Assembly: GCA_963575745.1 (NCBI GenBank)
Contig: CAUYUJ010019926.1
Span: 498,236-562,235 of the forward strand
Origin: Prorocentrum cordatum
Lineage: Eukaryota; Sar; Dinophyceae; Prorocentrales; Prorocentraceae
Reading direction: 5' to 3'
DNA length: 64,000 nucleotides
Position numbers and translations under genes: made by a program. Below the pieces are notes generated by a model, which saw only the letters and a program-made list of their open reading frames with translations, was not told the DNA's origin and ran no database searches. How positions within the stretch are numbered: the first letter of the stretch is position 1; the number at the start of each line of letters is the position of its first letter. Below, piece by piece: positions 5,006-62,003 of this stretch.

Positions 5006-8000
5006 CTGCATGCCCTTGTACGGCTCCCGCGTCTGCACCAGCGCGCCGGCCCCCTCGTGGAGCAACAGACACAAGACGCCACCCCACCCACGGCCCCACG
5101 GGCCTCAGCACATACCATGGAATGCGGCTCGGGTTTTGGCGTGGTACACGCTGCGGCCCCCGATGCGCCGTAGCGCAACATGGAGGGCCATGGGTGGGGT
5201 GGTGTCGTTTGGTTTTTGGTCGACCTCGGCCCTGGTGTAGAAATCCCGCAGCACCTTGATGGCCATCTCGACGGAGCCCTGACCATCCTTGGCGTCGGCA
5301 ACGGTCTGCGCGTTGGCGGCCTTGTCCTCGCTTCGGATCTTCGTCGCCTCGGCCTGCTCGGCCAGAGTGGTCGCGATTGCATCCCCTAGCTGCGCGATCT
5401 CCTCGGCGAGCAGTTCGATGTCCGCCGTCAGCTTGTCCGACGTCGCGGACAGCTCCTCGGCCTTCGCAGCCTTGTTCTCGCGCGTCTGCTTGTTGGTGGC
5501 CAGCTCGGTGCTGCAGAAGGCGTTATGGTCTGCCTCCGCATTCGCTTCCTCCATGAGCTTTACTATGAGATCTTTGATCATCTTTTTCACTTTGCCGAAA
5601 GGATCCTCGGTGACGTGAGCTGCCATTGTGAGCAAGTACTGGCTGCCAAGCTTCTTGGCGCGCATCTGAAGGTAGGCAGCGGCGCGCGCCCGGCTGTCGC
5701 CGTCCTCGCCCACCTGCGAACGCATCTGGGCGAACGAGGCGGGCGCCTTCTGGACCAACTTCGGGAGGTACTTCTCCGCATTGCCGAGGACCTCGTCGCT
5801 GGACAAGATCTCGTGGGCTTTCCGGATGGCGTCGATCTCCTCCTTGCGCAGCACCTGGTTCTTCTCGAACTCCTCCGACTTCTGGTGGCACTCCGTAAGG
5901 GTATCCTCGAGGTTCTTCTCGTCGTCGGCCTTCGTCTTCTGGGTTACCACAAGATCCCCCTTGGCATTGGCGGCGGCCTCCAGCCGAGCGGCCTTTTCTG
6001 CAGTCTTCTGCTTTGAAGACTTGGTGTCGTATTCGATATTGTCCTCCAGGCCCTGCGACAGCGCCTCGAAGTTCGCCTTCATGTTCATCTCCTCCTTTTG
6101 CAGAGCCAGCAGCTGGTCTTGAAACTTGTGCCGCAACTTCTCCAGCATCGCCACAACACCGCCTGTTGGGAAACCACACTGTACCGATACCGCTACTCCC
6201 TGGAACTCTCCTGGGCTGCGCTCTGACAAGAACTTCGAGACGCATCTGGCCGCGGAGACGAGGGCTTCCCAGGAGGCCCCCAAGAGCGAACACGGAGCAC
6301 GAGCTGCCGCATCGGCACCCTTTCCTCCGCCGAGCCCGACTGGAACTCGTAGGCGTTCGCCTCGGGCGCCTGCCGCGTCTCCAGGAAGGCCGCCAGGGCA
6401 GCCCTCGCCTTCGGGGGCAGGTACCCCGCGGCGCGCACCTGCGCCAGCGACTGCGGCACGTCCGCCTCGCGGGCCTTGAGCACCTGCACGGCCCTCTCCA
6501 GCGCGTCGATCGACTCCGAGAAGTCGGCGTGCTGCGCGTCGTAGTCTGCCGCCTCTCACGAGCGGCGACCGGATCCACATGCACACCCTCGCAGGCTGGA
6601 CTCCGAGGCGTGGCCCCGTGGATACGCGGTCGCATGGGATACTCGGCGGCGAGCCGGGGGTGGAAGTGAGAAGGGGCGGGCCTTCTCAGAAGGCTCGGAA
6701 GTCCCCCGGACTTCTGGGAAGTTTTCTAAGCCTTCCCCGAAGACACAGAAAACTTCTCAGAAGCCGCAGGGACTTCTGAGATTCTGAGAAGCCCTTCTCC
6801 TTCTCACTTCCCCCCCTCGCTCGCCGCCGAGATACGCTCCGCGCGGGCCATCCGCGGACAAACACGCCCGCACGCACGGGGGGTCGCGGCCCAGGGGCCC
6901 GGCCCGCGAAGCCGTGGATGTGGAGATGTTTTCCCCGTGAGGCCTCCCAGATGGGGTCAAGGCTGAGGATCGCCCACATCGCCGATGCACCGTCGACGTC
7001 GGCGCTGTATCGTCAACGTCGGCGTGGAGAAAACCGGGCCCCACGTCGAGCCGCATCGCCGATGTGGCTCGATCCTCCGGCCCCATCTGGGAGGCCTATG
7101 AGTCCCACCCTACGAACCTCCTTTGCACGGATCTGCTTCGCCTCTGCAAGCTCCGACTCGGCCTTCGCAATGGCCGCCTCCAGGGCGCTGAGCTCTCCCG
7201 CGAGTGTCCCTGCATCGCTCTCGGCCTTAGCGATGTCCGCGGTCAGCTGCTCGATCTGCGCCGAGGCCTCCTTTGGAAGGGCAGGAAGGCAATTACCGAT
7301 GCTGCTGCTCCCCGCACCTCTCCCTGGGTGCGTTCTGACCAGGATTCCGATGAAAATCCAGCCGTGGCGACGAGGGATCTCAAGGACGAGTAGCGGTACC
7401 GGTATCTTTTCCTCTTCTGATCCTTGATGCTCTTCTCCTTCTCGTCCCGCAGGGAATCGCACCATTGGTGGAACTCAGCGAACGCCACCTCTCGCTGGCG
7501 CGCCCGTGGGGGACAAAACCGAGGGGGCGGGGCTTCTCGGAATGCCCCCAGCCTTCTGAGAAGCTTCCTGAGCCTTCTCCGAAGCCGCAGTGGGCTTCTA
7601 AAGAAGGCCGGCGCGCTTCTGAGCAGCCCCACGGCTTCCCCGAGAAGGCCTGCCCCCTCTCGCTCTCCCCCCTCGGCGCGTCGCCGAACCTCCTCCTCGT
7701 GCTTGGCCGCCGCACCCTTGGCGACCATCTCGTCCAGCATGTCCATCACCTTCTGCAGCGGCGTGACCCGGGACGCCTGCCGGAGGCCCAGAGGCTGGCA
7801 CCGACACCAGGATCGGCCGTGTGCCTCCACCGAGGGGAGCTGATCTCAGTCTATGTGACGGTGGTAGTACAGTCGAGGCGTTAACCTAAAGAACCCTAAA
7901 TAAGGAACGAGGTCCCTATTTTCCATAAGTTGAACTTCGATTTCGCATCGAAGACCTGAGGAAAATCCAAGGCAAGCTGCGAACGAATTAAGGAGCACGG

Positions 8001-8226
8001 AGACCCTCCCCAACGAAAAGGGTTCCTTCTTCAGGGCCCCGACTGTAGTTGGGCTTCCTAGGTGGCCGAAAGATTGCCACCAAGACCAAAGTCTAGGATC
8101 ATCCCTCCCCAGTGAGCGCAATCCCCTGCTTTAGTGTCGGTGCCCATTTCCGAGCCTCCAAGCCTGAGCGACCGCGCGGATCTGCGCCAGCAGGACGGCC
8201 ACGACCGAGACGACGCCGAAGGCCAT
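5006..8226 (-). CDS. dinoflagellate coiled-coil secreted-type protein, 7 exons seen
   Basis: Exons, in transcript order: 8226-8164, 7776-7690, 7488-7423, 7270-7118, 6552-6336, 6162-5225, 5053-5006. Joined, they give about 524 residues in one frame. Residues 1-21 are a signal peptide (hydrophobic core VVSVVAVLLAQI, then AVAQ). The mature part is almost all helix and coiled coil: TPLQKVMDMLDEM, QIEQLTADIAKAE, then GGVVAMLEKL near residue 195, and MIKDLIVKLMEEA with a conserved Cys (AFCSTEL). The last exon carries PYKGMQ. This layout matches a large dinoflagellate family of unknown function, probably secretory or vesicular. Donors are GC, GT, GA, GT, GC and GT in order, all with AG acceptors. 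Exon 7 ends CAG|GA into (GAG)n. No stop codon or further exon was found down to 4,030, so the C-terminal part is missing from this reading or lost. Confidence 0.85.
5054..5224 (-). mobile_element. intron 6, foldback (introner-like)
   Basis: A GT-AG intron of 171 bp. Its two ends are inverted copies of each other: CACCCCACCCATGGCCC near the donor pairs with CACCCCACCCACGGCCC read inward from the acceptor. The 5-bp words at the borders are ACCTC (5223-5227) and CCCTC (5052-5056). Confidence 0.6.
6163..6335 (-). mobile_element. intron 5, introner-like, family M
   Basis: A GC-AG intron of 173 bp. The border words are GCCCG (6334-6338) and GCCTG (6161-6165). Its body shares segments with intron 3, such as ACCGATACCGCTACTCC and CTGGG(C/T)GCG(C/T)TCTGAC, in both orientations. 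The two introns therefore belong to one palindromic family. Confidence 0.65.
6553..7117 (-). other. intron 4, with nested MITE
   Basis: A GT-AG intron of 565 bp between RAKE and AADYDAQ. The border words are ACCTC (7116-7120) and GCCTC (6551-6555). It holds a complete foldback MITE at 6643-6830 and a segment (6855-6935) shared with 35,455-35,540. Confidence 0.75.
6643..6830. mobile_element. foldback MITE, CGGCGGCGAG family
   Basis: A 188-bp palindromic element. It starts TCGGCGGCGAGC..GGGGG and ends CTCGCTCGCCGCCGA, with repeated CCTTCTCAGAAGG and CTTCTGAGAAG cores. It is flanked by a 5-bp target duplication GATAC (6638-6642 and 6831-6835). Relatives are at 7492-7687, 18,340-18,529, about 45,610-45,804 and 56,054-56,224. 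Confidence 0.85.
7271..7422 (-). mobile_element. intron 3, GA-AG, introner-like, family M
   Basis: An intron of 152 bp with a GA donor (AAG|GA) and an AAAG|GAG acceptor. It joins KSIK to EASAQIEQ, the expected family sequence. The exact 5-bp word TCCTT (AAGGA on the coding strand) borders it at 7421-7425 and 7269-7273. It shares palindromic segments with intron 5. Confidence 0.7.
7489..7689 (-). mobile_element. intron 2, introner of the CGGCGGCGAG family
   Basis: A 201-bp GT-AG intron that is exactly one foldback element (7492-7687) plus one copy of a 5-bp target duplication. The duplication is ACCTC at 7487-7491 and 7688-7692, i.e. GAGGT on the coding strand. The left GAG|GT supplies the donor and the right GAG|GT the acceptor. 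The body has the CTTCTCAGAAGG and CCTTCTCGG cores of the family. Confidence 0.8.
7777..8163 (-). mobile_element. intron 1, introner-like with nested MITE A
   Basis: A GC-AG intron of 387 bp between the signal-peptide exon and ASRVTPLQK. The exact 5-bp word GCCTG (CAGGC coding) lies at 8162-8166 and 7775-7779. Inverted ends of about 30 bp share GGCACCGACAC at the same distance from each border. Removing the nested MITE (176 bp plus TA) leaves about 209 bp, the size of the other introns. Confidence 0.75.
7870..8045. mobile_element. MITE family A copy 1 (TA target)
   Basis: A 176-bp element with inverted ends CAGTCGAGGCG and GGGCCCCGACTG, flanked by TA on both sides (7868-7869, 8046-8047). The TA target and CAGT ends suggest a Tc1/mariner-type non-autonomous element. 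The body includes CCCTAAATAAGGAACG and CCCTCCCCAACGAAAAGG. It matches 17,639-17,814 and, less well, 28,616-28,761. Confidence 0.85.
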
Positions 8227-17059: not shown

Positions 17060-17540
17060 TTCTCCTCCTCCTCGTTGTCCTCCTCGTTATTCTCCGTGTT
17101 GTCCTCCTCCTCCTCCTCCTCCTCCTCCTCCTCCTCCTCCTCTTCCTGCTCGTCATCCTCCTCGTTCTCCCACTCCTCGTTCCTCCTCCTAGTTCCTCAT
17201 CCTCGTTCTCCCCCGATCATGCTACTCATCCTCGTCGCCCTCCTCCTCACCTGGAGAATGAGGATGGCGAGGGGCAGAAGGAGAGAGGAGCAGGCTGTGT
17301 CTGCTGTGTCATGAGAGGAGGGAGGAGGGAGGAGAGAAGAGGGGGGAGCGATGCAGACAGGGAGGAGCGAGGAGGAGGGATGCATGTACCGCGTCATGAG
17401 GAGGAGGCCCGACGCACACACGGAGGAGGAGGAGGGAGGAGCGAGGGAGGGGGAGGCCCGATGCACACACGGAGGAGGAGAGGAGGGAGGAGCGACGGAA
17501 GGGGGAGGGAGACGGACGAGCCGGCCGCGCGATGGGCAGG
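17060..17540. repeat. CTC then GGA microsatellites
   Basis: A pyrimidine tract (17,060-17,215) is followed by a purine tract (17,290-17,520) with GGAGGAGGGAGGAGCGA units. The two form a large imperfect inverted arrangement. Confidence 0.8.
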
Positions 17541-17638
17541 CCGTGGGGGGGGGGGGAGCTCTACCCTGGGGGGCTCGGCGCCCAACACTTGCACGGGGTC
17601 CGCGTCCCTCGCCTCGTCCCTCCCGGGCTCATTCGATA

Positions 17639-17814
17639 GAGTCGGGGCGTTGACCTGAGGAGCCCTAGGTAAGGAACGAGGCCCCTGTTTTCCGGAGGCT
17701 GAGCTTCGAACTCCCATCGAAGACCTGAGGGCAGCCTCAAGCAGACGGTGAAGCAATCAAGGAGCACGGAGCCCCTCCCCAACGAAAAGGGTTCCTTCTT
17801 CAGCGCCCCGACTC
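17639..17814. mobile_element. MITE family A copy 2 (TA target)
   Basis: 176 bp, the same length as copy 1. The ends are GAGTCGGGGCGTTGA and TTCAGCGCCCCGACTC, bordered by TA (17,637-17,638 and 17,815-17,816). Confidence 0.88.
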
Positions 17815-18339
17815 TACTGGAGGACCAAGAAGACTGGGTTGCCCGCACTGCTGACGTGCTCAGACGCCGCGCGCCACAAAGATATTTTGACGATCGCAGC
17901 CGCTGTCTTGAATGAAATGCACTGGGCTGCCCGCACAGTTGACGTGTTCACCTCGCAAGGAAACACCATTTTGTGTCTTCCCACCGATGTCTGGAAAAAA
18001 CCGCACGCCGCCGTGATATCGCTTACGCCGCCCAGGAAGTCAGGGTCCCCGGGCTCGGCTCACGGGGCAGAAGAAGGGGTACATGGGGTATGGGAGGGGG
18101 GATGCAGTTGCAGGAAGCGCCTTGTAAACACCCTTGCAGGCGGAACAAAAACGTCTCGGGTGAGCTGGCCCGAAGGCGCTACGCGATGCAACAACAGGCT
18201 GAGGCCGAATATTGCGCGGAAAATGAAGGAAGTGCGCCGAAGCCGAAGTGCGCAGAAACGGCAGGCGCCCATCATGCACCTACAGACAAATGAAGGCAGA
18301 TGGCAGCATTAGGGCGATTCTGTCTGTGGTGACATGCAT

Positions 18340-18529
18340 TCGGCGGCGAGCCCGGGGGGAAGCGAGAAGGAGCAGGCCTTCTCAGAGGGCCCGGAAGTCC
18401 GCGGGCCTCCTGAGAAATGTTCTCTAGGTTTTCCCCGGCGACAGCGAAACTCTCTCAGAAGGCGCGAGGGCTTCTGGGACACTCTGAGCAGGCTTTCTCC
18501 TCCTCGCTGTCCCCCTCGCTCGCCGCCGA
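18340..18529. mobile_element. foldback MITE, CGGCGGCGAG family
   Basis: A 190-bp copy that starts TCGGCGGCGAGCCCGGGGGG and ends CCCTCGCTCGCCGCCGA, with CCTTCTCAGAGG and CTCTCAGAAGG cores. No clear target duplication at this copy. Confidence 0.8.
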
Positions 18530-21205: not shown

Positions 21206-22950
21206 CAGCCTCAGCCTCAGCCTGCCTCAGCCTCAGCCTCAGCCTGCTTCAGCCTCCGCCTCAGTCTGCCTTCAGCCTCGGCCTCAGCCTCAGCCTCAGC
21301 CTCAGCCTGCCTCAGCATCAGCCTGCCTAAGCCTCAGCCTCAGCCTCGGCCTCTGCCTAAGCCTCAGCCTCAGCCTCGGCCTCAGCCTCAGCCTCAGCTT
21401 GCTTCAGCCTCAGCCTCAGTCTGCCTTCAGCCTCGGCCTCAGCCTCAGCCTGCTTCAGCCTCAGCCTCAGCCTGCCTCAGCATCAGCCTGCCTCAGCCTC
21501 AGCCTCAGCCTGCGTCAGCCTCAGCCTCCTCAGTCTTCCTTCAGCCTCGGCCTCAGCCTCAGCCTGCCTCAGCCTCAGCCTGCATAAGCCTCAGCCTCAG
21601 CCTCAGCCAGCCTCAGCCTCAGCCTGCCTCAGCCTCAGCCTCAGCCTGCCTCAGCCTCAGCCTCGGCCTGCTTCAGCCTCCGCCTCAGTCTGCCTTCAGC
21701 CTCGGCCTCAGCCTCAGCCTGCATCAGCCTCAGCCTCAGCCTCAGCCTGCCTCAGCATCAGCCTCAGCCTGCTTCAGCCTCAGCCTCAGTCTGCCTTCAG
21801 CCTCGGCCTCAGCCTCAGCCTGCCTCAGCCTGCATCAGCCTCAGCCTCAGCCTCAGCCTGCCTCAACATCAGCCTGCTCAGCCTCAGCCTCAGCCTGCCT
21901 CAGCCTCAGCCTCAGCCTGCTTCAGCCTCAGCCTCAGTCTGCCTTCAGCCTCGGCCTCAGCCTCAGCCTGCCTCAGCCTCAGCCTGCTCAGCCTCAGCCT
22001 CAGCCTCAGCCTGCCTCAGCATCAGCCTGCCTCAGCCTCAGCCTCAGCCTCAGCCTCAGCCTCAGCCTGCTTCAGCCTCAGCCTCAGTCTGCCTTCAGCC
22101 TCGGCCTCAGCCTCAGCCTGCCTCAGCCTCAGCCTGCATCAGCCTCAGCCTCAGCCTCAGCCTGCCTCCTCAGCCTCAGCCTCAGCCTGCCTGCCTCAGC
22201 CTCAGCCTCCTCATGCCTCAGCCTCAGCCTCAGCCTCAGCCTGCCTCAGCCTCAGCCTCAGTCTGCCTCAGCCTCGGCCTCAGCCTCAGCCAGCCTGCCT
22301 CAGCCTCAGCCTCAGCCTCAGCCTGCCTCAGCCTCAGCCTGCCTCAGCCTCAGCCTCAGCCTGCCTCAGCCTCAGCCTGCCTCAGCCTCAGCCTCAGCCT
22401 GCTTCAGCCTCAGCCTCAGTCTGCCTTCAGCCTCGGCCTCAGCCTCAGCCTGCCTCAGCCTCAGCCTGCATCAGCCTCAGCCTCAGCCTCAGCCTGCCTC
22501 AGCATCAGCCTGCCTCAGCCTCAGCCTCAGCCTGCCTCAGCCTCAGCCTCAGCCTCAGCTGCTTCAGCCTCAGCCTCAGTCTGCCTTCAGCCTCGGCCTC
22601 AGCCTCAGCCTGCCTCAGCCTCAGCCTGCATCAGCCTCAGCCTCAGCCTCAGCCTCAGCCTGCCTCAGCATCAGCCTGCCTCAGCCTCAGCCTCAGCCTG
22701 CCTCAGCCTCAGCCTCAGCCTGCCTGCTTCAGCCTCAGCCTCAGTCTGCCTTCAGCCTCGGCCTCAGCCTCAGCCTGCATCAGCCTCAGCCTCAGCCTCA
22801 GCCTCAGCCTGCCTCAGCCTCAGCCTCAGTCTGCCTCAGCTTCAGCCTCAGCCTGCCTCAGCATCAGCCTCAGTCTGCCTTCAGCCTCGGCCTCAGCCGC
22901 AGCCTGCCTCAGCCTCAGCCTGCATCAGCCTCAGCCTCAGCCTGCCTCAG
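21206..22950. repeat. GCCTCA hexamer array, 1.7 kb
   Basis: (CAGCCT)n broken by CAGCCTGCC, CATCAGCC, CAGTCTGCCTTCAGCCTCGG variants, which form a higher-order unit of about 60-120 bp. The complementary array lies at 61,687-62,003. Open frames through it (PQPASAS, SLSL) are repeat translations. Confidence 0.95.
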
Positions 22951-23590
22951 CATTCAAAATGTGGCCCGGGAATGGAGTTCTGGGGACTCGAAGACCACGA
23001 AGTGGCCTACAGTTGGCTCCGGGCATTCAAAATCATGCCCAGGAATAGAGTTCTGGGAACTCGCAGAGCACGAAGTGGCCTACAGTTGGCTCCCTGCGTT
23101 CAAAATCATGCCCAGGAATGGAATTCTGGGAACTCGAAGACCACGAAGTGGCCTACAGCTGGCTCCGGGCATTCAAAATCATGCCCAGGAATAGAGTTCT
23201 GGGAACTCGAAGACCACGAAGTGGCCTACAGTTGGCTCCCTGCGTTCAAAATCATGCCCAGGAATGGAATTCTGGGAACTCGAACACCACGAAGTGGCCT
23301 ACAGTTGGCTCCGGGCATTCAAAATCATGCCCAGGAATGGAGTTCTGGGAACTCGCAGAGCACGAAGTGGCCTACAGCTGGCTCCGGGCATTCACAATCA
23401 TGCCCAGGAATGGAATTCTGGGAACTCGAAGACCACGAAGTGGCCTACAGTTGGCTCCGAGCATTCAAAATCATGCCCAGGAATGGAGTTCTGGGAATTC
23501 AAAGACCACGAAGTGGCCTACAGGTGGCTCCGGGCATTCAAAATCATGCCCAGGAGCGGAATTTTGGGAACTCGAAGACCACGAAGTGTG
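22951..23590. repeat. 73-bp satellite, 9 units
   Basis: Each unit starts ATTCAAAATCATGCCCAGG, then GGGAACTCGAAGACCACG, then AGTGGCCTACAGTTGGCTCC. The spacing is 73 bp. It directly abuts the hexamer array. Six complementary units lie at 61,262-61,686. Confidence 0.95.
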
Positions 23591-23725
23591 TAACTGTTTG
23601 CTAAAAACGACTTCCGCGGGTTCTCCCCGGCACCCGCCCAGACCCCCCTGGGGAGTCAAGATGCTCTCTTTTGACACTACTAGAAACCTATCAGTCTTCG
23701 CTGTAAGGTAAAAATTCCCCCTGTC
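23591..23725. repeat. common flank of the 73-bp satellite, copy 1
   Basis: It carries CGACTTCCGCGG, CCGGCACCCGCCCAGACCCC, ATGCTCTCTTTTGAC and CTAGAAACCTATCAG. The same order appears complemented at 61,125-61,262. Confidence 0.85.
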
Positions 23726-28615: not shown

Positions 28616-28761
28616 CAGTCGAGACGCTATCAAAAGGAACCCTAAATAAGGAACGGGGCCGCTTCTTTCCACAAGTTCAACTTCGATCTCCCATCGGAAA
28701 CCTGAGGACAACCCAAGACAAACTGTAAAGCAATGACAGAACTCTTAGCCCCTCCCGACTG
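28616..28761. mobile_element. MITE family A copy 3, internally deleted
   Basis: Ends CAGTCGAGACG and CCCGACTG. The body GGAACCCTAAATAAGGAACG matches copy 1. It is about 30 bp shorter than the other copies (the CAACGAAAAGGGTTCC part is missing), and the flanking dinucleotides are TG rather than TA. Confidence 0.75.
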
Positions 28762-35077: not shown

Positions 35078-35338
35078 CCTATCCCTGACTCCGGATCCGC
35101 CGTGCGTTGCTTGATTCTGCGACGTGCAGATGTGTCGGACGTGCTCCCCAAACGATGCGAAACAATAGAGAGGAAACTTCCGTCTCAGAAAAGACAGCGG
35201 ACATTTCGAAAACATATGGCGGACAATAAAACGCCTAAGTAGGGCAGAAACCAGCATCAAAGGAATTTTACAAGAAGGACGGATATTTCCCTCCAGCTTG
35301 CGAAAGTGCCCAAAGTTCGGCGGATCCGAAATCAGGGG
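35078..35338. mobile_element. foldback element, CGGATCCGCCG ends
   Basis: The ends CTGACTCCGGATCCGCCG and CGGCGGATCCGAAATCAG are inverted. The interior is AT-richer (ACGATGCGAAACAATAGAG). A diverged relative lies at 40,455-40,760, and a minimal palindrome of the ends at 41,288-41,320. Confidence 0.65.
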
Positions 35339-35349
35339 GGTAGTATCAC

Positions 35350-35540
35350 GAGCGGCGAACATATCCATATCCGCGCATTTGTGGTCAGGATTCCGTGACG
35401 CGATCGCGTGGATGCGCCGTCGCACTGACACGTCCTGCGCGGGCGCCAGCGAAAAAGACGCCCCGTGCGCACGGGTTCGCGGCCCAGGGGCCCAGCCCGC
35501 GAGGCCGTGGATATGGACATGTTTCCCGCGTCATGGTGGG
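35350..35540. mobile_element. foldback element H
   Basis: GCGGCGAACATATCCATATC on the left pairs with GATATGGACATGTTTCCCGC on the right. The right 85 bp (GGTTCGCGGCCCAGGGGCCC) recur at 6855-6935 inside intron 4 of the coiled-coil gene. Confidence 0.6.
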
Positions 35541-35867
35541 CTGCCAGAGCCCGCGTCCAGTGAACGACGCACCGATGTCGTACGAGGCGTGCGCTAGTAA
35601 ATGAGGAGCGAAGGACAGCAGGCGTGAGCCGAGCCCAGTCGTCGTCGTGACCAGCGCGTTGGAACGGAGACAAGACTTCAACGTAGAGACGTACCGAGAT
35701 GTCGCACACAAGCGGAAAAGCATGCCAGAGGGTGGTCGTCGTCGTCGCACGGGTGGGCCAGAGACCCGCTTGCGGGCTGCAGGGCGCAATGCGCACGCGA
35801 CGCGCCCCGAGCCCATCGTCATGCGCGGATGGTGTGGGGACGTCGTCGTGGACGGGGGGGGAGGCCA

Positions 35868-41396: not shown

Positions 41397-41591
41397 TCGG
41401 GTCGGGCAGAAGGGGGGGATAGCAAAGGGGGGGATTGAGAATCAGCTCACGGAGCTGATTTTCCCGGCGCCTCCCGGCGCCGGAGGCGGCCATGTATCGA
41501 GGAATGGGCCCCTCGGTGAGGCCGAAACCAGCTGCATGCAGCAAATTTCGTAACCCCCCCTTTCCCAATCCCCCCCTTTCGCCCGGCCCGA
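41397..41591. mobile_element. MITE family E copy 1 (5-bp duplication)
   Basis: A 195-bp element with inverted ends of about 38 bp: TCGGGTCGGGCAGAAGGGGG and its complement ending GCCCGGCCCGA. The 5-bp duplication ATCTG lies at 41,392-41,396 and 41,592-41,596. The interior has two hairpins, AATCAGCTCACGGAGCTGATT-like and GGCGCCTCCCGGCGCC. It matches 52,657-52,850. Confidence 0.92.
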
Positions 41592-45561: not shown

Positions 45562-45609
45562 TCAAGAATCGAAGAACTGTCAACGACCGACGGGTAACCC
45601 CCCAAGATG

Positions 45610-45804
45610 CCCGCCCAGGAGGGGAAGTGAGAAGGAGAAGGCCTTCTCAGAAAGCGGCGGGGTTTCTCAGAAGCCCTCCGGCCTTCCGAAAGATTCTCTG
45701 TGTCTCCGGGGAAGGTTTAGAGCATTTCTCAAAGGCCAGGGGACTTCCGAGCCTTTTCAGAAGGTCCGCCGCTTCTCACTTCCCCCTCTCGCTCGCCGTC
45801 GAGC
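45610..45804. mobile_element. foldback MITE, CGGCGGCGAG family, left end lost
   Basis: GGGGAAGTGAGAAGG and GGCCTTCTCAGAAAG start the element. CCTTTTCAGAAGG and TCTCGCTCGCCGTCGA end it. The left CGGCGGCGAG is replaced by unrelated sequence. Confidence 0.75.
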
Positions 45805-48789: not shown

Positions 48790-50320
48790 CTTCAGGGGCC
48801 GATTTGGGTTGGGTGCCTTCCGCTCCGCGGGGGCGGCTGGGAGGTGCCCCGGCCCTTCTGGCCTTGCCCGTGCCTCAGCACCCAGCGTCTCGCACGGGCA
48901 ATCCCCGCGCATGAGTTGAGGCAACCTCCCCCACGGCGCGGAACGTCTGCAGATGTGATGCGTCGCAAGCCTGCTATGCACGCCTGTGCCCTTCTCGCAC
49001 GAGCTGATCGCAGCGCTGCGGCTGCTGTCGCGCTGCTTGCCCTTTCGCACGAGCCCCCCGTTGGCAACACAGTGCCTGCTGCCACTGCCTGCTTTCTCAC
49101 ATGCCTGCCGCTGCCTGCCCAGGCCTGTCTGACGCGCACTCTTGAGCCTCCTTCTTCGCACGAGCTCGCCCCAGTGCTGCAACTGATCGCGCCTGCCGCC
49201 GTGGTGCTGCGCTGGCTCCGACGATGGGCCCAGCACTGTAGCTGACGACGTTGGTTCAAGTTCGAGTCTGTCCCCCAATTCTGGTGCCAACGCCTGTCCT
49301 TCTCGCACGCCGTGGCGCCGCTGCTGTTGCTGACGACGTCATGCTCCAAACAAGCCCCTTTGACTGAAGTGGGTCAGCTTTTCATTCGTTGACGGTCCGT
49401 TTTCTCGCCCTGTCCCCGACGCTGTAGCTGATCGCGTCGGTTGTCATGACCCTCCGCTGGCTTCTACGATGGGCCCAGCACTGTAGCTGATGACGTCGGG
49501 CTCGCGGCCTTCCTCCACTCCTGATGCCACTGCCTGCCTTTCTCGCACGCTTGGGTATGTCGCGCGCGAGCTGATTCCAGCGCTGTGGCTGACGATTTTG
49601 ACTTCTAGATGTGTGTTCGCACGACCGCGTGCAGCTACACAGCCTGCTGCCACTGCCTGCCTTCTCGAACACACCAATCTCCGCTCTGTAGCTCAGAACC
49701 TGTCCCACGAGCAGGAAAAACTCGGACGAGCGAGTTCCCGCACTGTAGCTGAGATGTGCTTGGCACAACCCCCGCTTCCAGTAGCTGAGCCCTCTGCTAC
49801 TGCCTGCCTTTCCGCGTTAGCTGATCCCGGCGCTGCAGCAGAGGTGAGTCTCTCGCCCCGCTCGGCGCAGCGACGCCCTTCTTGCACGCCCCGACGCCAG
49901 CGCTGTAGCTGATGACACCGGGCTCTAGCTTCGTCTTCCGCAGCTCGTTGGGCAGCGACAGAACCTGCAGCCGCTGCTCGCCCTTCTCGCACAAAGTGCC
50001 AGATGCTGCCACTGCGCGCTGTTTCGTGAGAGCTGATCCCTGCCTTTTAAAGCTGATGATGTATTTCCTGTTTGCGCCTTCTCACACACACGTGCTGCCA
50101 CTGCCCGCCTTTGTTTCAAGCAGCGGTGCCAGGACGGTAGCTGATGAGATTCGTTACGTAATCGTTGTTCCCGCAGATGATACTCCCATCTTTGCTGCTG
50201 ATGGTGTGTGGCTCGTGTTTCGGCGCTGGCGGGGCCTGGTCGTTGCTTCGATAGCTGATGGCAGTGGGCTCCGCTGGTCTGTCTCTGGTGCCTGCCCGTG
50301 CGCGCTGATGCTCAGCCATT
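48790..50320 (-). pseudogene. decayed pentatricopeptide-repeat (PPR) protein
   Basis: On the minus strand the pieces LRKTKLEPGVISYSAGVGAC (near 49,945-49,886), EPDVISYSAG (near 49,505-49,475), SYSAGIS, and ACEKA/CEKG recur with about 35-codon spacing. Dinoflagellate PPR proteins carry tandem repeats of the type PNVISYNAAISACEKGxQWxxALxLLxEM. Here the repeats are broken by many frame changes, and only the VISYSAG..ACEKG cores survive. PPR proteins bind organellar RNA. This copy cannot be functional as read. Confidence 0.7.
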
Positions 50321-52656: not shown

Positions 52657-52850
52657 TCGGGCCGGGCGAAAGGGGGGGATAGCAAAGGGGGGGGTGAGAA
52701 TCAGCTCACGGAGCTGATTTTCCCGGCGCCTCCCGGCGCCGGAGGCGGCTATGTATCGAGGAAGGGGCCCCTCGGTGGGGCCGAAACCAGCTGCATGCAG
52801 CAGATTTCGTAACCCCCCCTTTCCCAATCCCCCCCTTTCGTCCGGCCCGA
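52657..52850. mobile_element. MITE family E copy 2 (5-bp duplication)
   Basis: 194 bp, bordered by AAATG (52,652-52,656 and 52,851-52,855). Nearly identical to 41,397-41,591. Confidence 0.93.
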
Positions 52851-55559: not shown

Positions 55560-56050
55560 TCGGGGCGAACACGGGGATGGGTCCAGGGGTCGAAGGAGGG
55601 GCGAAGGGATAGGGGCGAAAGTGTCGAAGGAGGGGCGAAGGGGTCGAAGGAGGGGCGAAGGAGGGGCGAAGGGGTCCAGGGGACAGGTACAGGGGTCGGA
55701 ACGAACACGGGCAGGCAGGAGGGCGAAAGAGGGGGGCTGAGAAGGGAGGATGAAAAAAGGTACGAGGGAGGATGGAGATGCGGACGGACGGGGGAGGAGG
55801 GAGGATGAGGGGCAGGGGAGAGGGGGGGTGAGCAAGAGTGGAGGGAGGAGGGGGAGCGATGGAGAGGGAAGGAGGAGGGGGAGAAGGAGGGGGGGGAGGA
55901 AGGGGGAGTCAGGAGAAGGAGGAGAAGGGAGGGGAGAGCAGGGGGCGAGATAAAAGGCGGGAGGGCAAGGAGGGGGACGAGGAGCGAACGAGCGGAGGCG
56001 GGAGTGGAGGGGCAAGGGGGGAGAGAGAGGAGGGCAACGGGAGGGATCAC
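55560..56050. repeat. GGTCGAAGGAGGGGCGAAG and purine-rich repeats
   Basis: Irregular GTCGAAGGAGGGGCGAAG units (55,590-55,690) followed by GGGAGGAGGGGGAG-type purine tract. Open frames here are repeat translations. Confidence 0.8.
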
Positions 56051-56053
56051 CAG

Positions 56054-56224
56054 TCGGCGGCAAGCGAGGGGGGGAAGTGAGAAGGAGAAGGTCTTCTCAG
56101 AAGGCGGCGTGAATGCTCACAAGCTCTCGCGCCTTCTGAAAAGTTGTCCGCGTCTTCAAGGAAGGCTTCCCGAGCCTTCTGAGAAAGCCCGCCCCTGTTC
56201 ACTGACCCCTGGCCTCGCCGCCGA
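56054..56224. mobile_element. foldback MITE, CGGCGGCGAG family
   Basis: A 171-bp copy, from TCGGCGGCAAGCGAGGGGGG to GCCTCGCCGCCGA, with the 5-bp duplication ACCAG (56,049-56,053 and 56,225-56,229). The interior has GGTCTTCTCAGAAGGCG and GCCTTCTGAGAAAG. Confidence 0.88.
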
Positions 56225-56349
56225 ACCAGGGGGTGGGAGAGAGAGGGGGGGGGGCCACGACGACGAAGACAACGGCATGCGGAGCACCGCCCCCGCTTGT
56301 GGCGCCCCTCAGAGGCTGCCAATCATGCCCCCCCCCCCTTTGAACAACA

Positions 56350-61124: not shown

Positions 61125-61262
61125 GGTTGCTTTGCCGGGATAATTTTACCTAACAGCGTTTGCTGATAGGTTTCTAGTAGGGTCAAAAGAGAGCATCATG
61201 ACTCCACAGGGGGGTCTGGGCGGGTGCCGGACAGGGTGCCGCAGAAGTCGTTTTAAGCCAAC
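61125..61262. repeat. common flank of the 73-bp satellite, copy 2 (inverted)
   Basis: The complement of 23,591-23,725. It also holds the hairpin CTGTTAGGT..ACCTAACAG around AAATTATCCCGGCAAAGCA (minus sense). That last word also occurs alone at 21,046-21,068. Confidence 0.85.
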
Positions 61263-61686
61263 AGTCACACACTTCGTGCTCTTCGACCTCCCAGAACTCC
61301 ATTCCCGGGCCACATTCTGAATGCCCGGAGCCAACTGTAGGCCACTTCGTGCTCTTCGACTTCCCAGAACTCCATTCCCGGGCCACATTTTGAATGCCCG
61401 GAGCCAACTGTAGGCCACTTCGTGGTCTTCGAGTTCCCAGAACTCCATTCCCGGGCAACATTTTGAATGCCCGGAGCCAACTGTAGGCCACTTCGTGCTC
61501 TTCGATTCCCAGAACTCCATTCCCGGGCCACATTTTGGATGCCCGGAGCCAACTGTAGGCCACTTCGTGCTCTTCAAGTTCCCAGAACTCCATTCCTGGG
61601 CATGATTTTGAATGCCCGGAGCCAACTGTAGGCCACTTCGTGTTCTTCTAGTTCCCAGAACTCCATTCCTGGGCCACATTTTGAAT
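61262..61686. repeat. 73-bp satellite, 6 units, inverted
   Basis: TTCGTGCTCTTCGAGTTCCC, AGAACTCCATTCCCGGGC, then ATTTTGAATGCCCGGAGCC. The complement of 22,951-23,590. Confidence 0.95.
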
Positions 61687-62003
61687 GCTGAGGCAGGCTG
61701 ATGCTGCGGCCGAGGCAGGCTGAGGCTGAGGCAGGCTGAGGCTGAGGCCGAGGCTGAAGGCAGACTGAGGCTGAGGCTGAAGCAGACTGAGGCTGAGGCT
61801 GAGGCAGGCTGAGGCTGAGGCTGAGGCAGGCTGAGGCTGAGGCAGGCTGAGGCTGAGGCTGAGGCTGAAGCAGGCTGAGGCTGAGGCAGGCTGAGGCTGA
61901 GGCCGAGGCTGAAGGCAGACTGAGGCTGAGGCTGAAGCAGGCTGAGGCTGAGGCTGAGGCAGGCTGAGGCTGAGGCAGGCTGAGGCTGAGGCAGGCTGAG
62001 GCT
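61687..62003. repeat. GAGGCT hexamer array, inverted copy
   Basis: (AGGCTG)n with AGGCAGGCTG variants. The complement of 21,206-22,950 but five times shorter. Confidence 0.95.

Follow-up and report, generated by a model that had tools for sequence, protein, structure and literature searches.

The coiled-coil gene and its introns

The window, meaning the whole stretch of 64,000 nucleotides of Prorocentrum cordatum DNA that was analysed, has a GC content of 62.6% and contains no N. For P. cordatum, the passages on base composition in PMC10666404 give a GC content of 59.7%, the highest among the dinoflagellate genomes compared. The minus strand of the window carries a modelled gene for a coiled-coil protein. 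Joining 8226-8164, 7776-7690, 7488-7423, 7270-7118, 6552-6336 and 6162-5236 results in one open frame of 504 residues, and the product by inspection has a signal-peptide-like start followed by a coiled coil. The model covers the 5' part of the gene to position 5236, and 504 residues is the length as cut rather than that of the whole gene. The exons and introns on which the argument rests are the following.

8164-8226, minus strand: exon 1, with a signal-peptide-like start (MAFGVVSVVAVLLAQIRAVAQ) and its end putatively placed at CAG|GC
7777-8163, minus strand: intron 1, GC-AG, with the 5-bp repeat CAGGC and inverted ends GGAGGC..GGCACCGACAC; the repeat was considered in choosing the boundary
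7690-7776, minus strand: exon 2, ASRVTPLQKVMDMLDEMVAKGAAAKHEEE
7489-7689, minus strand: intron 2, predicted, 201 nt, GT-AG, composed of an element and 5 bp from the target duplication
7423-7488, minus strand: exon 3, VAFAEFHQWCDSLRDEKEKSIK
7271-7422, minus strand: intron 3, GA-AG, with the 5-bp repeat AAGGA, sharing a family with intron 5; here too the repeat was considered in choosing the boundary
6553-7117, minus strand: intron 4, GT-AG, with a 4-bp boundary repeat, containing two foldback elements
6163-6335, minus strand: intron 5, GC-AG placed by frame, with a 3-bp boundary repeat, of the same family as intron 3

From intron 1 to intron 5 the donors are GC, GT, GA, GT and GC, the acceptor is AG|G in all five, and the boundary repeats are 5, 5, 5, 4 and 3 bp long. 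GC and GA donors make up 25-74% in Symbiodiniaceae, and non-GT donors are usual in dinoflagellates, according to the sections of PMC11453091 on splice sites. The boundaries of introns 1, 3 and 5 are our own placement, and direct repeats together with the AG|G rule partly guided the choice for introns 1 and 3. The 5-bp repeats of these two introns therefore do not count as independent evidence. Intron 3 has separate support for its end, as two homologous stretches of the protein (repeats 1 and 2, described below) align gap-free across that junction. The GAG runs in exon 2 permit alternative GA donors. Pairing between the two ends of an intron does not beat shuffled sequences in introns 2-5 (for the ends of intron 2 alone, a score of 14 vs a maximum of 16 in 300 shuffles); intron 1 alone does so (14 vs a maximum of 12 in 300).

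Under a codon model trained on these same exons, in which simple-repeat tracts elsewhere score up to 81, the segments of exons 2-6 have codon-use scores of 13.8 to 166, compared with a maximum of 11.4 in 10 sampled sequences. The 60 best coding segments of this model do not include exon 1. An Rfam scan of the window at gathering thresholds returned nothing, as did a tRNA scan. The joined protein, searched with provisional exon ends, has only weak matches in Pfam and PDB (below the Pfam cut-offs, or with an E value of 0.93). Four other putative exons have no Pfam match at cut-off. A putative exon at 49866-49988 with VISYSAGVGACKKG, which we take to resemble dinoflagellate PPR repeats, has no match in Pfam.

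The exon 6 part of the protein (313 residues) has no confirmed relative in genome_contigs. In viral_contigs it matches one contig, L001, which was matched again using its own piece. The protein of exons 2-4, with provisional exon ends, has no relative in viral_contigs. L001 is an IMG/VR contig that encodes, at its end (L001:1-690), part of a protein belonging to this coiled-coil family. It also has T4-like phage tail, portal and protease genes, named by reading alone, and is probably an assembly chimera.

All five modelled introns have a relative in the window at an E value of 1e-5, with introns 3 and 5 counting as each other's relative, compared with 24% of 200 random intervals; relatives for all five were obtained in 0 of 40 random sets. 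The difference holds at 1e-3 (5/5 vs 37%) and at 1e-7 (4/5 vs 20%). Tandem repeats were masked in this test, and the random intervals were size-matched and taken from outside the gene. Introns 3 and 5 belong to one family (score of 41 vs at most 17 in 300 controls). Copies of the interior of intron 1 occur at 17637-17816 (80.6%) and 28616-28756 (76.6%), in both cases in DNA without a recognised gene.

The element in intron 2 and its family

Intron 2 contains a 196-bp foldback element with the direct repeat ACCTC on both sides.

7688-7692: target duplication ACCTC (GAGGT in coding sense), source of the GT donor
7492-7687: foldback (MITE-like) element, 196 bp, terminal inverted repeats (TIR) 10/14, predicted near full-length hairpin
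7487-7491: target duplication ACCTC (GAGGT in coding sense), source of the AG acceptor

On the minus strand the upstream GAGGT provides the GT donor and the downstream GAGGT the AG acceptor, and removal of the 201 nt leaves a single target copy and an open frame. The ends of predicted intron 2 coincide with those of the element, which is the defining arrangement of an introner. The sequence-only reading had described the intron as a 196-bp element plus 5 bp, with ACCTC on both sides supplying donor and acceptor, and it is exact to the base on both points. Self-pairing over almost the entire intron is predicted (MFE of -123.2 kcal/mol, z of -5.5, with 0 of 200 shuffles as stable). The TIR of this copy are decayed.

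BLASTN within the window finds five copies of the family, of which four are sisters of the copy in intron 2.

6643-6830: sister copy in intron 4, with the duplication GATAC at 6638-6642 and 6831-6835
about 18340-18529: sister copy with recognisable ends, without target duplication
about 45600-45803: sister copy with a degraded left end, without target duplication
56054-56224: sister copy, with the duplication ACCAG at 56049-56053 and 56225-56229

The best match of the element elsewhere in the window scores 61.7 bits, and 200 Markov-sampled queries with the dinucleotide make-up of the element score 29.1 on average and 38.3 at most; the family match is not due to chance. The termini are TCGG...CCGA with a 5-bp target duplication (TSD), and this duplication is at the expected place in three of the five copies (ACCTC, GATAC and ACCAG), where the TIR match at 10-12 of 14 positions. 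The combination of a fixed-length target duplication with TIR that defines MITE or foldback elements is therefore found in 3/5 copies; at the copies at 18.3 and 45.6 kb no TSD was found. The earlier claim of copies outside exons with their own duplications, GATAC and ACCAG, is borne out, with the refinement that the 6638/6831 copy is located within intron 4 of the coiled-coil gene.

The copy in intron 2 is 65-73% identical to the other four, which are 73-85% identical among themselves. Its identity to a leave-one-out consensus is 74.8% (119/159), compared with 81.6-95.2% for the others. Because this identity is the lowest of the five, the copy in intron 2 would be either the oldest or a member of a diverged subfamily.

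Within the window one copy of the five forms a whole predicted intron and one lies inside another intron. The idea that every copy is an intron was dropped; only the copy at 7492-7687 is seen as one, and it is the only one (1/5) seen coinciding with splice sites. Within 600 bp of the copies at 18.3, 45.6 and 56.1 kb, only glutamate-tract segments are present among the 60 best coding segments. A search of viral_contigs with the pattern of the element's end gave no match.

The target duplication and TIR were also searched for without reference to the family. A strict scan (16-bp TIR with up to 3 mismatches, 5-bp TSD) results in 5 hits in the window, compared with 1 in total across 8 sampled sequences. 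The hits are the 6643 copy, two copies of a second family and two near 25 kb, where the sequence is repeated; they do not include the 7492 copy. A relaxed scan anchored on TCG...CGA ends results in 6 hits, including the 7492 copy, vs a mean of 1.4 and a maximum of 3 in 30 controls. The two hits at 25.0-25.5 kb were not counted as elements, as they fall in a repeated region, nor was a hit at 17177-17709, which looks spurious.

The window also has other repeats. The second foldback family, at 41397-41591 (TSD ATCTG) and 52657-52850 (TSD AAATG), has 185 of 194 aligned bases identical and looks recently active. Intron 4 contains another foldback element at 6938-7100, which is 73.5% self-complementary over 166 columns and has the ends AGGCCTCCCAGATGGGG; no clear target duplication of this element was found by eye. 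The segments 22795-23619 and 61239-61843 contain 73-bp tandem repeats, lie about 38 kb apart and have an inverted match of 83-92% over 250-340 bp.

The sister copy in intron 4 has an empty site in the window.

35320-35560, minus strand: related repeat and empty site, a relative of intron 4 that is continuous across the 6643 insertion point

When intron 4 keeps the 6643 element, its alignment to this repeat stops no more than about 20 bases from the insertion point and scores 62. Taking out the element and one GATAC lets the alignment continue through and raises the score to 89, vs at most 24 in 200 controls. This demonstrates insertion with target duplication for the sister copy at 6643 and not for the copy in intron 2. 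Mobility as judged by an empty site is seen for the 6643 copy only.

Probable splicing of intron 2

The 201 nt of intron 2 are a multiple of three (3 x 67) and contain no in-frame stop; therefore, the reading frame alone is no proof of splicing. The element could instead be translated as an arginine- and proline-rich insert of 67 residues that is not spliced, and the 67 uninterrupted codons are in line with this. The composition of the interval does not resemble coding sequence. With a per-codon score trained on exons 4-6 only, so that exons 2 and 3 are outside the training, the interval scores -0.46 in frame, no better than the other two frames (-0.41 and -0.40), compared with +0.61 for exon 2 and +0.43 for exon 3. 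The third-position GC of the interval is 66%, vs 97% and 86% in the flanking exons, and none of the 60 best coding segments lies in it.

Homologous stretches of the protein family also lack the insert. Repeat 2 is a second, homologous stretch of the same protein, located within exon 6. Repeat 1 aligns to it with a score of 122 when spliced and 104 when the interval is retained, in which case the local alignment breaks at the insert; 1000 shuffles score at most 76. Against the relative on L001, repeat 1 scores 131 spliced and 120 retained, with shuffles at most 83. An earlier alignment of repeats 1 and 2, under provisional exon ends, gave 99 spliced vs 79 retained. At the protein level neither repeat 2 nor L001 has the 67-residue insert. 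The spliced stretch beside the junction is 4 residues longer than both homologues, which means that the true junctions could be displaced by up to 12 nt, or that the difference may be old. The codon scores and the alignments of homologous stretches jointly favour splicing of intron 2, without proving it, and translation of the element as part of the protein is very unlikely.

Origin of intron 2 and its relation to known introners

It is highly probable that intron 2 arose when a foldback element inserted into an exon, the target supplied both splice sites and splicing made an intron of it. The element would be a short, non-autonomous foldback DNA element mobilised by a transposase encoded elsewhere. 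It would have landed in an exon of the coiled-coil gene, and the 5 bp duplicated there would be GAGGT in coding sense. Since this target includes AG|GT, each copy would yield one splice site, the upstream one (GAG|GTTCGG) at the 5' end and the downstream one (GCGAGAG|GTGG) at the 3' end. Splicing would remove the element and one target copy, and the protein would be unchanged. The element itself carries neither splice site, and folding into its predicted hairpin would place its two ends next to each other.

The introner interpretation of the sequence-only reading is supported by the exact target duplication, the TIR and the family copies elsewhere, and further by the empty site of the sister copy, the non-coding composition of the 201 nt and the homologous stretches without the 67 residues. 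Calling the locus a direct view of intron birth overstates the case, as splicing is predicted only and the copy is not a fresh event, being the most diverged of the five.

The divergence of the copy is also compatible with an older, ordinary intron that later received the element, in which case chance or drift would account for the match between element ends and splice sites. The 6643 copy within intron 4 is an example of nested insertion in this gene. However, no remnant of a host intron is present, the 201 nt being the element plus 5 bp with both splice sites in the duplicated target, and this origin is highly improbable. Large dinoflagellate genomes have many pseudogenes, but the gene is scarcely likely to be a decayed copy that the insertion disrupts without harm and that has neither splicing nor a product, given the codon-use scores of exons 2-6 above and the joining of all exons, at the junctions as we placed them, in one open frame.

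Roy et al. 2023, as cited in PMC11453091, reportedly describes introners in Polarella. That introners are known from dinoflagellates, as had been stated from the sequence, is in print, with TIR and TSD (PMC9860276). The portions of this source on introner structure give 548 introner families; among the scorable ones TSD are found in 49/130 and TIR in 72/177. Family 1 of Symbiodinium microadriaticum, as described there, resembles the present case in having TIR and short TSD and in that the ends of the element make an intron. It differs in that its TSD is 4 bp and provides only the 5' site, the element having its own 3' splice site, whereas here a 5-bp TSD gives both sites. An introner of Florenciella (PMC9860276 Fig. 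2E) is alike in that it has no splice sites of its own and co-opts both from the insertion site; it belongs to a different lineage, and the likeness drawn here is one of described structure.

Introner elements of P. cordatum itself (PMC10666404) and of Amoebophrya (PMC7789003) are described in the relevant passages of these sources as having inverted repeats near the intron ends and direct repeats of 3-5 nt located at the boundaries or close to them. Intron 2 has the same general features, and a hairpin is predicted in Amoebophrya as well. The Amoebophrya elements, in the same passages, were defined among non-canonical introns, where a family-specific inverted repeat was not found, whereas the present family has recognisable ends and occurs also away from any recognised exon. 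The family shares with MITE or foldback elements that it is short and non-coding, has TIR, a fixed TSD length and several copies, and forms a near-complete hairpin.

No published description of this element family was recognised in the literature search; since family lists sit in supplements outside that search, this says little. Introns derived from transposable elements in dinoflagellates are known already, as is the origin of both splice sites from the target in another alga. Intron 2, as predicted, would be one clear member of the known introner class.

A landing at NAG|GN with duplication of about 5 bp might, in this lineage, turn any element into an intron immediately, without a splice site of its own, and the fifth base of the target would set the donor. 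This generalisation is tentative and rather doubtful. It draws on three introns of one gene, two of them placed with the repeat in view, whose 5-bp boundary repeats read CAG|GC, GAG|GT and AAG|GA; the other two introns have only 4 and 3 matching bases. If true, a donor set by the fifth base of the target would explain why GT, GC and GA donors are found side by side in dinoflagellates.

Intron 2 is a base-precise example of how a mobile element may be neutral to a gene, with the duplicated target alone giving both splice signals. Together, the empty site of the sister copy and the repeat relatives of all five introns make the gene a compact test case, which bears on the origin of the intron richness and the donor variation of dinoflagellates.
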